Source: Chlorobium sp. (lineage in GTDB: Bacteria > Bacteroidota > Chlorobiia > Chlorobiales > Chlorobiaceae). From it: a DNA stretch of 56,440 bases. Each line of letters begins with the position of its first letter. The first letter of the stretch is position 1. The DNA is taken from positions 1 to 56,440 of the forward strand of contig SZXY01000024.1 of assembly GCA_005843805.1 (NCBI GenBank), in the 5' to 3' direction. The notes under the pieces were generated by a model, which ran no database searches, had not been told where the DNA came from, and saw only the letters and a program-made list of their open reading frames with translations. The position numbers and the translations under genes are program-made. Shown piece after piece: positions 752 to 47,575 of this stretch.

Positions 752-3700
752 TTACAGCGTTCCGCTTTGGCGTTGGGGATGAGTGGTGGCTCTGTTTTGC
801 TCTCTTGGTAAACTCGTGCTTACTTTTTGCAGCGAGCCTGCACGATCAGCCATTATTTTTTCCTGCTCTTCTTGGGGCAGGATTTCAAGCAGGGAAAGCG
901 GTGTTTCGGGAGCTTCTTCAAGCGCCGTGACCAGGGTTTCCAGGGCATATTGCATCAGGTTACAAATCCGTTCAGGATCAATGGAGGCATCAATTTGAAC
1001 AGTCAAGCCAAACCCTTCTTTCAAATCATCGATGGACAGGCTGATTGGATAGTTGGTTCGTTCTTCAGTATGGCGGATGAGTTCAATGCCTTCAAGGTCG
1101 AAAGCGACATCATTTTGTTTTCCTCCCTGTCGATAGTTCAACAGAGAGGAGAAGAGAGGTGTCGAGACCGGAACAGCACTGCAGCGTTGAGCCATGCTCA
1201 GTGAGGCATACTCATGGAGCATCAGTGCCAGAAGGCGATGCTGGGTATCACGAAGCGCTTCTGAAACCTTGCGCGCACTGCAGGTAACCCGAAACGGGAG
1301 AGTATTGATGAATAGACCGAGTGCCCGCTCAACTCCTTCCCCTCCCTGCATTCGACCCAGGAGTACTGTGCCGAAGACCACATTCTCCTGATTGCAACAA
1401 CGGGAAAGGATAAGAGCCCAGGCCAGATGGAAAATAGTGGCCGGAGTTGCACTGAAACAACGAGCCTGTGAGCGTAACCGCAGAGCCAATTCCAGTGGCA
1501 GAGTGCGGTGTGCTTCGACAATCCTTGATCCATCACCTTGAACATCGAGCAAACCAAATGGTGTGGTTGGACTCTTGATATCATTTAGCATGTTTCGGAA
1601 AAAAGTTTCGTGAGCCTCGTTTGTAATTTCTCCTCGCATGTTGGCGATAAAATTACGGAACGGCACAGGTGTTTTCAGTCCCTTTGTATCTTTCTTCAGG
1701 TATGCTCTGATTTCTTCAAACATGATCTCCATGCTCCATTGATCCATGACAAGATGGTGAGCGATCAGAAGCATCAGCCAGCGTTTCCCGTCCTTTGCTA
1801 TTGCGATCCGAAGCAAGGGCGCGTGAGTGAGATCGAGACGAAGCTGGCGGGGATGGAAGGATTCCATCAATTGGTTGGCAATGAAACCCTCTTCGGGATT
1901 GAAATGCAGCACGTCAACCGCCAACCGGGCATGACGCCAGACAACCTGGAGCGGTTCCGGTAACTGTTTCCACACAAACGCCGTGCGCAGTATGTCGTGG
2001 CGATCGATAACAGATTGCAGTGCTGCAATAAATGCTTCGCAACGCTCCAGAGAGTCGATACTGAAAAGTTGGTGGCTCAGGTAGAGATCACTATCGCTTT
2101 GCAGTTGGTAGTGGAAGAGCATGCCTTCCTGGAATTGTGTCAGTGGATAGATATCCTGAACGTTGCTTGCACCCTCCTCGACACTCTGCACCACTTTGTC
2201 GATGTCAGTCTGTGAAAGGAGTGGCAGCGAGAGAAGATCCGTTGTAATTCGGGTTGTGCCAGGAAGAATGCGGTTAGCCGGAATGGTCACGAGTGCTTCA
2301 TGTTTATGGCCAGATCTACGGATTCGCCCGGCAAGTTCAAATGGCGTTGGAGCTTCAAAGATCCAGCGGATTGGTATGGAGATGCCGGTGGCATCGCGCA
2401 GCATAGAGGCAAGTTTGGTCGCCAACAGGGATTCTCCACCAAGTTCGAAAAAGTTGTCGTGGACGCCAGGGCGGTTCTGTTGGAAAAGTGTGGCCCAGAT
2501 ATCGACAAGGATCTCTTCAATGGTGTCGATCGGGGCAACGCTGTCGCTCTGTATGAAGGCTTCGGGTTCGGGAAGCGCATGTCTGTCAATTTTTCCGTTG
2601 GGGGTCATGGGCATCGCTTGAAGGAATACAAAAGCCCCTGGCAACATGTAATCGGGAAGAGTGATCTTGAGAAAGGCTCGCAGTTCAGCGGAGGTAAGCA
2701 GCGCTTCCGGCGAAACGACATAGGCGACAAGACGCGTTTGTCCTGATTTCTCTGTGCGAGATATGATCAGGGCTTCCCGGATGGAGGGATGAGCCGTGAG
2801 GGCACATTCTATCTCTCCCGGTTCGATGCGAAATCCCCGGATCTTGATCTGATGATCGATGCGGCCAAGAAATTCAATATTTCCGTCAGGTCGGTATCGG
2901 GCAAGGTCGCCGCTCTTGTAGAGACGTGCGCCTGGTTTGCGGGAAAAAGGGTCGGAAATAAATTTTTCAGCAGTCAGCTCGGGGCGGTTCAGATAATTGC
3001 GAGCCAGACCGACACCTCCAATGTGAAGTTCGCCGACAACTCCTGTGGGGGTTGGCTGCAGGTGGCGGTCGAGGATGTAGATCCTGACGTTTGCAATTGG
3101 TCTGCCAATGGAGAGTGGCGTGTCAGCAGAGATGCATGAATGGTGGCATTCGGCAATGGTGGCACATACCGTTGCTTCGGTTGGGCCGTAGGCATTGAAC
3201 AAACGTCGCCCTTTAGACCAGTAAGATACCAGAGCTGGAGGGGATGGCTCACCGGCTACAATCAGGCTCTCCAATACAGGCAAAGGATATTGCGGGAGGG
3301 CAGCAAGCACCGTTGGAGGCAAGGTCAGATGGGTGATCGCCGCCTCATCGAGGTAGTGAAGCAACGAGAGACCGGGAAGGCGTTGTTCGTCATTGGGAAG
3401 ATGAAGTTCAGCCCCGGCACAGAGAGCCATAAATATTTCAGATACGGATGCATCAAAGCTGAATGAGGCAAACTGGAGTACCCGGCTTTTTGCGCCAATC
3501 GCAAAGGATGAGATCTGGGCACAGGCCAGGTTGGCCAGACCGCAATGTGCAATTGCAACACCTTTTGGGGTTCCGGTTGAGCCTGAGGTATAGATGATGT
3601 ATGCGAGTTGTTGCGGATCGATTTCAAGATCGGGGTTCTTGATGGGTTGAGTCGTAATAACTCTCTCATCATCATCGACATAAAGGGTATGTTGTGCAGC

Positions 3701-43348: not shown

Positions 43349-44215
43349 ATGAAGCTTCATCGTCAGTGGCTTGCACATATCAGCTCCCTGAGCAAATCTT
43401 TCATACGGCAAAACGCCCTGCCGTTAATATCGGCTGGTTTATTGGCCACTCTTCTTCTCATATTCTTTTTTAACAGGATTGTAATTTCGATTCACTCAGG
43501 CGAAAGGGGGGTTCTTTGGCGACGGCTTGGTGCCGGCACTGTGATTGATACTGTCTACCCTGAAGGATTGCACCTTATTTTTCCTTTTAACAAGATGTAT
43601 ATTTATAATGTTCGCAAGCAGCAGTTTAGTGATTCGATAGATGTTTTAACGTTTGATGGGCTGACTGTTCGGGTAAAGTACACCGTGCGCTATTACCTTG
43701 ACCCCTCTACGCTGCCTATACTCCATCAGGTCATTGGTCCTGATGTTGTCAATGTCGCAATTCGTCCTGATGTCCGATCTGTTATACGAACTCTTTTCGG
43801 GCAGTACAAGCCCGAGGAAATCTACACTTCGCAGAAAGCTATCCAATTACTTTTGACCGAGCAATCAAAAGTACTTCTTGCCGCCCGTTTTGTCAAGATT
43901 GACGATGTTCCAATTGAATCAATCACTCTTCCAGTCAGCATTTCCCGAGCTATTGAGGAGAAGATGGTTCAGCAGCAACGGGAGGGGGAATATGTCTATC
44001 GTCTTTCTATTGCATCCAAAGAATCGGATCGTCTCAAGATCGAATCCAATGGAATCCGGATGTACAATGAGATGATTAACAAAAGTTTAACGCCATCTGT
44101 TCTCAAGTGGGAGGGTATTCGTGCAACGCAGGAGCTGGCAAAATCGCCGAATGCCAAGGTAGTGGTGATAGGTGCCGGTCAATCTGGATTGCCGATTATT
44201 TTAGGCAAGGATTAA
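43349..44215 (+). CDS. SPFH/prohibitin-family membrane protein
   Basis: 288 residues. A single hydrophobic segment (about 25-45, LISAGLLATLLLIFFFNR) is followed by an SPFH domain: GERGVLWRRLGAGTVIDTVYPEGLHLIFPF, VKYTVRYYLDP, then a helix-rich part rich in E/Q/R (AIEEKMVQQQREGEYVYRL). This is the prohibitin/HflK-like layout of membrane-anchored ring proteins, which organise membrane patches or hold proteases; the exact role is unknown. AGGA upstream of ATG 43349 is a weak SD. The next gene starts 5 bases after the stop, so the two are probably translated together. Confidence 0.85.
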   Translation: MKLHRQWLAHISSLSKSFIRQNALPLISAGLLATLLLIFFFNRIVISIHSGERGVLWRRLGAGTVIDTVYPEGLHLIFPFNKMYIYNVRKQQFSDSIDVLTFDGLTVRVKYTVRYYLDPSTLPILHQVIGPDVVNVAIRPDVRSVIRTLFGQYKPEEIYTSQKAIQLLLTEQSKVLLAARFVKIDDVPIESITLPVSISRAIEEKMVQQQREGEYVYRLSIASKESDRLKIESNGIRMYNEMINKSLTPSVLKWEGIRATQELAKSPNAKVVVIGAGQSGLPIILGKD

Positions 44216-44220
44216 ACTAT

Positions 44221-45369
44221 ATGAAGAAGGTTTTTTTTTTGACAGCATCGATTGGATTGCTTGTTTTTCTCTTGCTCTCCCAATTTGGTTCCTATGAGCA
44301 GAAGGGAGAACGTCGAATCGAAGCGTTGGGTTCGCCCTCGAAAGAGGTGCTGGTTGGGGTGTGCTGGCCTTTTTCTGTAAACCGTGACGGCATGGCCAAT
44401 GGTCTTCAGATGGCTCTCGACGAGATCAATTCCCGGAATCTCGCTGGGGGATATACTCTTCGCCTGGTTATACGGGATGATGCTTTTGATGCTAACAAGC
44501 AGAAAAGGATAGCCAAAGAGTTCGCCAGTACACCTGAAATGAGTGCTGTGATTGGATACTATGATGACGGTCCCGCCATCAAGGCTTCGACAATCTTTGA
44601 GTCAAGTCGGTTGCTGCATCTCATGATCGGGCCCAACAGTACGGATATGACCTCTCATGGTTTTCAATATATTGTGCGCACCATTCTCTCCAGCGACCGG
44701 ATTGCCTCGAAACTTGCAGCTATAACAACAAAGCGTCATTACCAGAAGATTGTAGTGCTATGTGAGGAAGATGCCTTTGGTGAGGATCTTGCCCGTCAGT
44801 ATCGGGTAGCTCTTGATAAATTAAACGCCCAGGTGGTTTATCAATGGTCTTATTCCCGTCATCACGCAGACTTTCGCTTACTGGTCAACGAGCTGAAAAT
44901 GATCGATGCGGATGTCATTTTTTTTAGCGGAATAGAACCTTATGCCGGCGATTTTTTACGCATCGCCCGTAAAGTCGGCTTGAAGACTCCCGTCATCGGG
45001 GCTTTCAGCAATACCCCTCAAATGCAGGAACATGCGGGGTCGGCCTATGAAGGCGCCATGTATTTTGATTTTTATGACGCCTGCTCCACAACTCGAGAAA
45101 ATAGTTTGTTTGTCAAAAATTATTACGCGAGGTATGGTACTGTTCCTGATACCTGGGCAGCACAAAGCTATGATGCCTTATACCTTCTTGCGAAGGCTGT
45201 AAAGTTCACAGGATCACGTAACCCCCTTGATTTGTCCTACGCCATTCGGTATTCTGATCCCTGGGAAGGCGCCAATGGGAGATACAAGTTTGACCGTGCA
45301 GGTAATCTTGAAGACAAGCCACTTTTTCTTTATATGATTCAGCACGGAGTACCTGTGTTGATTCAATAA
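44221..45369 (+). CDS. Branched-chain-amino-acid-type solute-binding protein
   Basis: Start taken at 44221, giving 382 residues: AAGG lies 13 bases before the ATG, and the product begins with a signal or anchor sequence (MKKVFFLTASIGLLVFLLLSQ). The longer track start at 44107 would overlap the SPFH gene. The mature part is a type I periplasmic-binding fold of the LivJ/Peripla_BP_6 kind (KEVLVGVCWPFS, GLQMALDEIN, VIGYYDDG, LCEEDAFGEDLA, SYDALYLLAKAV). There is no lipobox cysteine, so it is either released to the periplasm or kept as a membrane anchor. No permease or ATPase gene is adjacent; it may be a sensor-like partner of the SPFH protein rather than part of a transporter. Confidence 0.85.
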   Translation: MKKVFFLTASIGLLVFLLLSQFGSYEQKGERRIEALGSPSKEVLVGVCWPFSVNRDGMANGLQMALDEINSRNLAGGYTLRLVIRDDAFDANKQKRIAKEFASTPEMSAVIGYYDDGPAIKASTIFESSRLLHLMIGPNSTDMTSHGFQYIVRTILSSDRIASKLAAITTKRHYQKIVVLCEEDAFGEDLARQYRVALDKLNAQVVYQWSYSRHHADFRLLVNELKMIDADVIFFSGIEPYAGDFLRIARKVGLKTPVIGAFSNTPQMQEHAGSAYEGAMYFDFYDACSTTRENSLFVKNYYARYGTVPDTWAAQSYDALYLLAKAVKFTGSRNPLDLSYAIRYSDPWEGANGRYKFDRAGNLEDKPLFLYMIQHGVPVLIQ

Positions 45370-45484
45370 GAGAATGTTATGTTTTTTTACTGCTTCTTTG
45401 AATAGGGTTTATTTTGCTATCTTTGTTTTTATTGGTAATAAGTGAAATCAACTTTAACCTGCCATTTAAGAAAGGAGATTACTT

Positions 45485-46021
45485 ATGAAAGACCAGACAG
45501 TTGAAGCTACGGCGGAAGTGGTATCCGAGAGCGTTAATGACACCCTTGATCGCGACAAGCGTGTTGAAAGACATGCAAGAAATCACATTTTGACAGCAAT
45601 GGGGGTAGGACTTTTCCCGCTTCCGTTAATTGATATGGTAGCCTTGGTTGGTGTCCAGCTCGATATGATCAGGACGCTTGCAGGTGAGTATTCTATTCCA
45701 TTCAGAAAGGATATCGGCAAATCTGTCATCACGACCTTGCTGGGTGGTTTCATTCCTGTTGCCCTGGGAGGCTCACTTGCCAGTTTGATAAAATGTATTC
45801 CTTTAATTGGTCAGACTACGGGTGCCGTTACCATGCCGGTTATTTCCGGAGCCTCTACTTATGCTATTTACAAGGTATTTATACAGCATTTCGAGTCAGG
45901 CGGAACCTTTCTCGATCTCGATCCAGCCAAGGTTAAGTCCTATTTTGCCGAACAGTTCACAAAAGGCAAACAGGTGGCTGCGGATATAAAAGCAGAAGGA
46001 AGTGCTGGTTCATCAAACTGA
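45485..46021 (+). CDS. DUF697/YcjF-like membrane protein
   Basis: 178 residues with a perfect AAAGGAG SD upstream. A charged N terminus (about 1-35) precedes HARNHILTAMGVGLFPLPLIDMVAL and glycine-rich hydrophobic stretches (VITTLLGGFIPVALGGSLASLI; GAVTMPVISGASTYAIYKVF). The pattern matches the DUF697 family, often linked to GTPases in other genomes; none is adjacent here. The function is unknown, and it is probably an inner-membrane protein. A terminator follows directly. Confidence 0.75.
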   Translation: MKDQTVEATAEVVSESVNDTLDRDKRVERHARNHILTAMGVGLFPLPLIDMVALVGVQLDMIRTLAGEYSIPFRKDIGKSVITTLLGGFIPVALGGSLASLIKCIPLIGQTTGAVTMPVISGASTYAIYKVFIQHFESGGTFLDLDPAKVKSYFAEQFTKGKQVAADIKAEGSAGSSN

Positions 46022-46429: not shown

Positions 46430-46657
46430 CAGAGAGATACAGTGCCCCTCCCGGATGAGCACTGAGCCATTTTCAGTTGCCTTTGGATATTTCCGGTAGC
46501 ACTAAAAGCTTTCCGTCAGCGTTTTATAATTGGCTGCAATGGTCAAAATATGGATCACTCCAGTCACCGTAGCCTGCCCTTTTATATGAAGATAAAAAGC
46601 GAGTGAAAGCTTTTTTTTCAAGGCCTTAACTTAACTCAACAGAACAGGAAAACCAGC

Positions 46658-47575
46658 ATGTCAGAACAAAATCCGAATCACTTCATTCCTCGTGTTGCAA
46701 TAGTAGTCTCACCGGTCAACAATGTCATGCAGGCATTCAGTGCGGTTACCGGTACATGGGTTTCGTTTTCCGGCACAGTTCAGGATAGTGGCGCCACGGT
46801 TTTGACGGGTACCAACGTCGGTCTTGTGGTTTCTCCAGTCAATAACGTCATGCAGGCATTCAGTGCACTGACGGGGACGTGGCAAAGTCTGAGCGCCACG
46901 ATTCAGGATACAGGCGCTGTCATTCGCGCTGCCGGAAACGTTGGGCTGGTGGTTTCACCAGTCAACAACGTCATGCAGGCATATAGTGCGGTTACCGGTA
47001 CCTGGGCTTCGCTCGCCGGTACAGTTCAGGACACTGGAGCTACAGTTCTTGTGGGAACCAATGTCGCATTGGTAGTCTCACCCGTCAATAATCTCATGCA
47101 TGCTTTCAGTGCGCTGACAGGGACGTGGCAAAGCCTGACGGCCACGATTCAGGATACGGGAGCCGTGATTCAGGCCGCAGGTAACGTAGGGTTGGTAGTC
47201 TCACCTGTCAACAATGTCATGCAGGCATATAGTGCGGTCACCGGCACCTGGGTTTCGCTCTCGGCCACAGTCCAGGACACTGGCGCCACTGTTCTGACGG
47301 GAACCAACGTTGCTCTTGTGGTCTCACCAGTCAATAATGTCATGCAGGCATTCAGTGCACTGACAGGTTCATGGCAGAGCCTGACGGCCACGATTCAGGA
47401 TACTGGTGCCGGCATTCAGGCCGCAGGTAACGTAGGGTTGGTGGTTTCTCCAGTCAACAACGTCATGCAGGCATTCAGTGCAATCACCGGTACATGGGCT
47501 TCGCTCTCCGCCACAGTCCAGGACAGTGGAGCGTCAATTCTGGTTGGAAACATTGCTGGTACCGACGCCGGATAA
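46658..47575 (+). CDS. Protein of seven 41-residue tandem repeats, unknown function
   Basis: 305 residues. After 12 residues the whole chain is seven head-to-tail 41-residue units of the form V(A/G)LVVSPVNNVMQAFSALTG. Units alternate between type a (TGTW(V/A)SLSATVQDTGATVLTGTN) and type b (TGTWQSLSATIQDTGAVIQAAGN), so the effective unit is 82 residues; the last unit runs into a short GTDAG tail. The repeats have regular V/L, T and G spacing, which would suit a beta-rich stacked fold; that is an inference. There is no signal peptide, cysteine or charged cluster. AGGAAAA precedes the ATG. I recognise no family. Confidence 0.8.
   Translation: MSEQNPNHFIPRVAIVVSPVNNVMQAFSAVTGTWVSFSGTVQDSGATVLTGTNVGLVVSPVNNVMQAFSALTGTWQSLSATIQDTGAVIRAAGNVGLVVSPVNNVMQAYSAVTGTWASLAGTVQDTGATVLVGTNVALVVSPVNNLMHAFSALTGTWQSLTATIQDTGAVIQAAGNVGLVVSPVNNVMQAYSAVTGTWVSLSATVQDTGATVLTGTNVALVVSPVNNVMQAFSALTGSWQSLTATIQDTGAGIQAAGNVGLVVSPVNNVMQAFSAITGTWASLSATVQDSGASILVGNIAGTDAG
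46694..47554 (+). repeat. Seven 123-bp tandem repeats within the coding sequence
   Basis: Seven in-frame 123-bp units, arranged as 246-bp a/b pairs plus one extra a unit. Some segments are almost identical between pairs, for example around ATTCAGGCCGCAGGTAACGT in units 4 and 6, while others differ at third positions. This points to expansion by recombination under selection for protein sequence. Confidence 0.9.

Follow-up and report, generated by a model that had tools for sequence, protein, structure and literature searches.

The locus considered here raises the question of what fold is adopted by a protein that consists of little else than near-identical repeats, and of whether such a chain stacks into an open array or closes into a ring. 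The gene lies in a stretch of 56,440 nucleotides (the window), which is one whole contig of the genome of a Chlorobium sp. (2.38 Mb in 208 contigs); a gene for the FMO antenna protein (PF02327, E 1e-227) in the same genome marks it as that of a green sulfur bacterium. With its stop codon the gene occupies positions 46658..47575 of the forward strand. It starts with ATG and encodes 305 amino acids, and an AGGA at 46646..46649, read in the sequence 8 nucleotides upstream of the ATG, is a possible ribosome-binding site. Judged by its pattern of substitution, the reading frame is coding, because dN is far below dS between the repeats and full-length homologues exist elsewhere.

The chain is comprised of a 13-residue leader (MSEQNPNHFIPRV, 46658..46696, delimited by alignment with relatives), seven repeats of exactly 41 residues and the five-residue tail GTDAG (47558..47572 in the translation). 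Comparison of the repeats assigns form A to repeats 1 (46697..46819), 3 (46943..47065) and 5 (47189..47311) and form B to repeats 2 (46820..46942), 4 (47066..47188) and 6 (47312..47434), whereas repeat 7 (47435..47557) is A-like, so that the order is A-B-A-B-A-B-A', three AB pairs followed by the A-like seventh. The motif VSPVNN occurs seven times and all six spacings are exactly 41 residues. Tandem Repeats Finder reports two periods, one of 246 bp (3.3 copies) and one of 123 bp (6.7 copies). Identity is 80-90% among the odd repeats 1, 3 and 5, 87-90% among the even repeats, and 60-75% when odd and even repeats are compared with each other (repeats 1-6); repeat 7 represents a third, odd-like form, 70-75% identical to the odd repeats. 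The repeats are not due to chance, since self-identity of the protein is 63% at an offset of 41 residues and 78% at 82, and did not exceed 20% in 500 shuffled controls at offsets 20-164.

This spacing and identity pattern bears out an earlier note, made from the sequence alone, which described a stand-alone chain made entirely of repeats in two forms. The alternation that the note proposed holds for repeats 1-6, the seventh being a further, A-like form, and the leader, given there as 12 residues, has 13 before the first full repeat. The composition (0 Cys, 0 Lys, 2 Arg, 8 Asp, 1 Glu) agrees with the stated absence of cysteines. Nor was a signal sequence seen, as the note had also said, and a cytoplasmic location is therefore likely.

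Four full-length relatives, 38-48% identical to the window protein, were found: one in Hymenobacter and three in Saprospiraceae or the same order. The Hymenobacter volaticus protein (WP_245127304.1) is encoded on a plasmid and annotated as 'hypothetical protein'; it was found by tblastn at 46.7% identity (E 9e-61) and is 48% identical in the alignment. The other three (loci L013, L014 and L019; 38-40% identity) came from a scan of a genome collection with the pattern AFSxxTGTW, for which artificially masked rows had been added to the query alignment so as to guide the choice of pattern; an earlier scan of the genome collection with an SPVNN-type pattern yielded no relative. The number of repeats is seven in all five full-length members, none of which has capping segments. 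The N-terminal MSExNP...RV is conserved among the window, Hymenobacter and Saprospiraceae proteins, and their lengths are nearly equal, with repeats of 41 residues in the window protein and 42 in the relatives. By these shared features the proteins are one unnamed family.

No relative of the gene was found in 36 congeneric genomes, and further wide samples of the phylum gave no convincing one. Weak matches in other Bacteroidota genomes (L003, L004, L011) were discarded, as the genes there look unrelated or off-frame. Repeated scans of viral contigs likewise gave no relative; a viral origin was rejected on this ground, weak tblastn matches to Vibrio phage tape-measure proteins being judged compositional. 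The blade motif recurs in more distant proteins, namely a Desulfobacterales protein (L015, P0006), a surface-type protein (L020) and the Streptomyces protein P0003, all of which the family profile ranks above controls. The L020 protein (1459-2523, reverse strand) has as its last part an amplified propeller-like array of five blade-like repeats (NFLIHEYDQAIVFNASTGTW...) that are near-identical. Another array was met in L002 (706-2853, reverse strand), where a secreted-looking protein carries many near-identical GNKWIGTxxGGLAEFDGTNWTLYNTSNSGLP repeats and is probably a repetitive propeller array.

The family libraries gave weak, repeat-inflated matches to the window protein, in keeping with the statement in the earlier note that no named family could be recognised. 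In each of the three lineages the best Pfam match is Kelch_6, which falls at the same place in the repeat (E 8e-11, 6e-7 and 0.006). These scores are sums across the repeats, no single stretch passing the cut-off; by whole-protein score the window and Hymenobacter proteins lie above the cut-off and the Saprospiraceae proteins below it. Profile comparisons rank Kelch and tectonin-like proteins above NHL, hexapeptide and reversed controls, though weakly. Summed matches to PHROG, NCBIfam and PADLOC were rejected because they scatter over unrelated families, and a role in anti-phage defence has no real PADLOC support. A sequence search of solved structures returned only flagellin at E ~0.3, and the family profile nothing; a literature search gave nothing useful on Kelch propellers in Chlorobium or on symmetric SAKe propellers.

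The strands of the repeat, taken from the model of a relative and named as in Kelch proteins, run in the order B-C-D-A: GLVV forms strand B, followed by the loop SPVNN, VMQAFSA strand C, followed by TGT, WQSL strand D, and, after a further loop, GAVIRA strand A. Kelch propellers have a tyrosine in strand C and a tryptophan in strand D (PMC4668279, PMC12035522). In all 28 repeats compared a Phe or Tyr stands at position 14 and a Trp at position 21 (F/Y-x6-W). By definition, the hydrophobic strand B of a Kelch repeat ends in a double glycine (PMC12035522, PMC4668279); this Gly-Gly is absent from the family, and Ser/Gln-Pro takes its place in 28 of 28 repeats. As this defining feature was tested and is lacking, the family, by its sequence, is not a formal member of Kelch. 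The resemblance is real but falls short of membership, and no clear match to a described family of known function emerged.

Structure prediction gave a divided answer, the model of a Saprospiraceae relative being blade-like and the single-sequence model of the window protein solenoid-like. For the relative, the input alignment consisted of that protein, the window protein and one further relative; AlphaFold reached a pLDDT of 85.6 and a pTM of 0.85, with at least 82.8 in three of the five models. Six of the seven repeats have four strands, strand A of repeat 7 being unassigned. Foldseek found 853 PDB matches at E<=0.001, and the 50 matches listed are, to judge from their titles or known folds, β-propellers; they are led by the designed symmetric SAKe6 proteins (E 3.6e-11), together with the Kelch domain of Keap1. 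The corresponding BFVD list is headed by viral WD40 and Kelch proteins. Superposition on whole propellers is poor (TM 0.25-0.30 and rmsd 11-14 Å in Foldseek; best Z 8.3 at 10.1 Å in VIA-align), which implies that the predicted ring is open, under-wound or wrong-handed; in this model the blades match propellers locally, while their overall arrangement is not that of a normal closed ring. For the window protein itself, the best single-sequence model has a pLDDT of 79 and the other four range from 67 down to 36. Single-sequence prediction is unreliable for near-identical repeats, and the absence of a propeller from the structural matches listed for this model was not counted against that fold. 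Prediction alone does not settle the choice between ring and stack; the sequence arguments and the constant number of seven favour the ring.

The criteria applied for a propeller were repeats of ~40-50 residues that form four-stranded antiparallel blades, with four to twelve blades in a closed ring, and those for a β-solenoid or functional amyloid were an open-ended stack, a variable repeat number and end caps. It is likely, in our judgement, that the protein is a small cytoplasmic seven-bladed β-propeller with Kelch-like blades, which binds a partner through a repeated face. Each 41-residue repeat would form one four-stranded blade in the order B-C-D-A. Since the chain would begin at strand B of blade 1, the terminal strand A (GASILVG, at the end of repeat 7) would complete that blade, and we infer that the ring closes in the manner of Keap1, where the C-terminal final strand A completes blade I (PMC4668279). 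The protein would be soluble and remain in the cytoplasm.

The earlier note had guessed at self-assembly into a filament or stacked fold. In its present form this reading, to which we give a low probability, is an open β-solenoid or β-helix stack, which may form polymers through its ends or attach to a target that is flat or linear. In its favour are the few charged residues and high symmetry of the window protein and its single-sequence model at pLDDT 79, for which the comparison with the SufD β-helix gives Z 14.2 (216 residues aligned at 4.9 Å) and the best Foldseek match, a weak one, is a curli subunit. That model, however, is the only one of five with such confidence and has no PDB match at E<=0.001, whereas the relative with diverged repeats gives blades in three models of similar confidence, with 853 matches of which those listed are propellers. 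Hexapeptide β-helix proteins fail to match the family profile. The count is constant at seven in three distant lineages, capping segments are lacking and the chain ends are of the ring type; the Kelch model is the best Pfam match in the three lineages, and the better of the two structure models has propeller-matching blades. A filament is thus unlikely. Less probable again is an open arc or oligomeric ring, in which two or more chains form a larger closed propeller. The relative's model fits best, albeit poorly, to large multi-blade propellers such as eIF2A and IFT80, and engineered fragments of WD40 propellers do close as 6- to 9-bladed oligomers (PMC6805158). Geometry predicted from three sequences carries little weight, however, and a start at strand B, an end at strand A and seven blades in one chain suit closure within the chain; seven is also the median number of blades in highly repetitive WD40 propellers (PMC9218822).

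A different kind of alternative is that the array is a very recent tandem expansion that drifts without a selected function. The high internal identity and the absence of the gene from the other searched genomes of the genus would suit it, but about half of the silent sites differ between repeats, while the amino acids are mostly the same, with dN/dS ~0.1 within a form, and the Saprospiraceae relatives show dN 0.04 at dS 1.2. We regard this explanation as very improbable. Pairs of blades of the same form in the window protein have dN of 0.06-0.14 against dS of 0.5-1.2. With silent sites far more diverged than amino acids, it is selection on the protein, as read from these rates, and not recent copying that keeps the blades alike.

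Returning to the seven-bladed propeller, the blades of different lineages are best matched in register, an arrangement equalled by 66, 72 and 11 of the 5040 permutations; most of this signal seems to come from the end blades. This match indicates that the seven-blade layout probably predates the Chlorobiaceae, Hymenobacter and Saprospiraceae lineages. Forms A and B differ mostly in strands D and A and their vicinity. At the codons of 20 invariant residues, the odd/even split fits the silent differences best among the 35 partitions, closely followed by another, and the differences reach their minimum in the blade pairs 1/5 and 3/7 (0.15 each). The Hymenobacter blades show no odd-even pattern at silent sites. 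These values, from a small sample, suggest that blades were copied or converted in two- and four-blade steps in the lineage of the window protein.

From 48129 rightward the gene order is conserved in five congeneric genomes, and nothing from ~28 kb up to the repeat gene adjoins this block there. By synteny, the repeat gene thus marks the edge of a variable region, of which a large peptide-synthetase cluster forms part. Genes for a Band-7 protein, a periplasmic-binding-type protein and a DUF697 protein lie upstream on the forward strand (43349-46021); the DUF697 gene has strong matches in 12 of 40 congeners, at other places, and where both are listed it and the downstream gene are on different contigs. 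The non-ribosomal peptide synthetase cluster (752-42989, reverse strand), seemingly unusual for a 2.4-Mb green sulfur bacterium, encodes a 4184-residue protein (four adenylation domains, three condensation domains and, at its end, a reductase-type domain), a 1730-residue synthetase that carries a TubC docking domain, two ABC transporters and a protein with a condensation domain; open reading frames of 3179, 1562 and 1177 residues lie further left. On the Hymenobacter plasmid (L007, 4921-7972) the related gene is flanked by a pair of exact 854-bp direct repeats containing tyrosine-recombinase fragments, an arrangement like that of a mobile unit. In Saprospiraceae the gene is near a putative sugar-phosphate isomerase/epimerase gene, named by eye. 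Comparison of the neighbours in the three lineages revealed none in common and none that hints at function, and the protein therefore probably works alone. The gene is rare and patchy, and it appears to be accessory and to have been passed among Bacteroidota/Chlorobiota bacteria.

In Kelch propellers the substrate face is built from the B-C and D-A loops (PMC4668279). In the window protein every one of the seven repeats has the same B-C loop, SPVNN. With both loops on one face, the ring would display the same site seven times around its channel, and this repeated face would bind a partner or ligand. The most economical proposal, we infer, is a multivalent or symmetric binder that acts through the seven SPVNN loops, seven identical loops under selection suggesting a ligand that is itself symmetric or multivalent. 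We would give even odds to a broader proposal: that these proteins are an unnamed, horizontally moving family of stand-alone, near-symmetric seven-bladed Kelch-like propellers without Gly-Gly, whose member in Chlorobiaceae was built or homogenised in two-blade steps, with selection for seven identical ligand loops. If so, it would be the second reported two-blade amplification, and a bacterial one, and a natural counterpart to the designed symmetric propellers. Natural propellers with near-identical blades are raw material for asking how copied units yield closed folds. Three points are notable here: a period of two blades in the window protein, selection that keeps its blades alike, and a repeat number that stays at seven across distant hosts. 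Its members display three states, near-identical and paired in Chlorobiaceae, uniformly similar in Hymenobacter and diverged in Saprospiraceae, with seven copies throughout, so that a 30-kDa protein makes it possible to test how repeat number is linked to ring closure.

Among known systems, the Kelch propellers (Keap1, Pfam Kelch_1 and Kelch_6, SAKe6) provide the best matches of the family in both fold and sequence. They share with it the B-C-D-A order, the hydrophobic strand B, the aromatic residue in strand C and the Trp in strand D, and as in Keap1 the C-terminal strand A of the window protein would be free to close blade 1. Unlike them, the family has [Ser/Gln]-Pro in place of Gly-Gly, repeats of 41-42 residues instead of about 50, no partner domains and no single repeat above the Pfam cut-off, and the repeats of the window protein are nearly identical. 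The Streptomyces tectonin/Kelch-like protein (P0003, plasmid NZ_CP108132.1) has the blade motif with GTW after strand C and a weak profile match, but it is longer, has an N-terminal signal-like and other region and is ~21% identical. Within the family itself, the Hymenobacter and Saprospiraceae relatives differ from the window protein in their 42-residue repeats, and the Saprospiraceae blades have diverged. Pereira and Lupas (2022) define highly repetitive β-propellers by a median blade identity of >60%. The window (71%) and Hymenobacter (69%) proteins exceed this value and the Saprospiraceae proteins (38%) do not. Among 10,474 such domains these authors reported one two-blade amplification, in a fungal 47-blade NACHT protein, which they called the first observed, and a disrupted Kelch-like seven-bladed propeller in a Verrucomicrobia bacterium (PMC9218822). 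Like the highly repetitive propellers, including WRAP of Nostoc and the set of PMC9218822, the window protein combines a median blade identity above 60% with seven copies and a scattered taxonomic distribution; it differs from that set in that its period is two blades and its silent divergence implies an amplification that is not recent.
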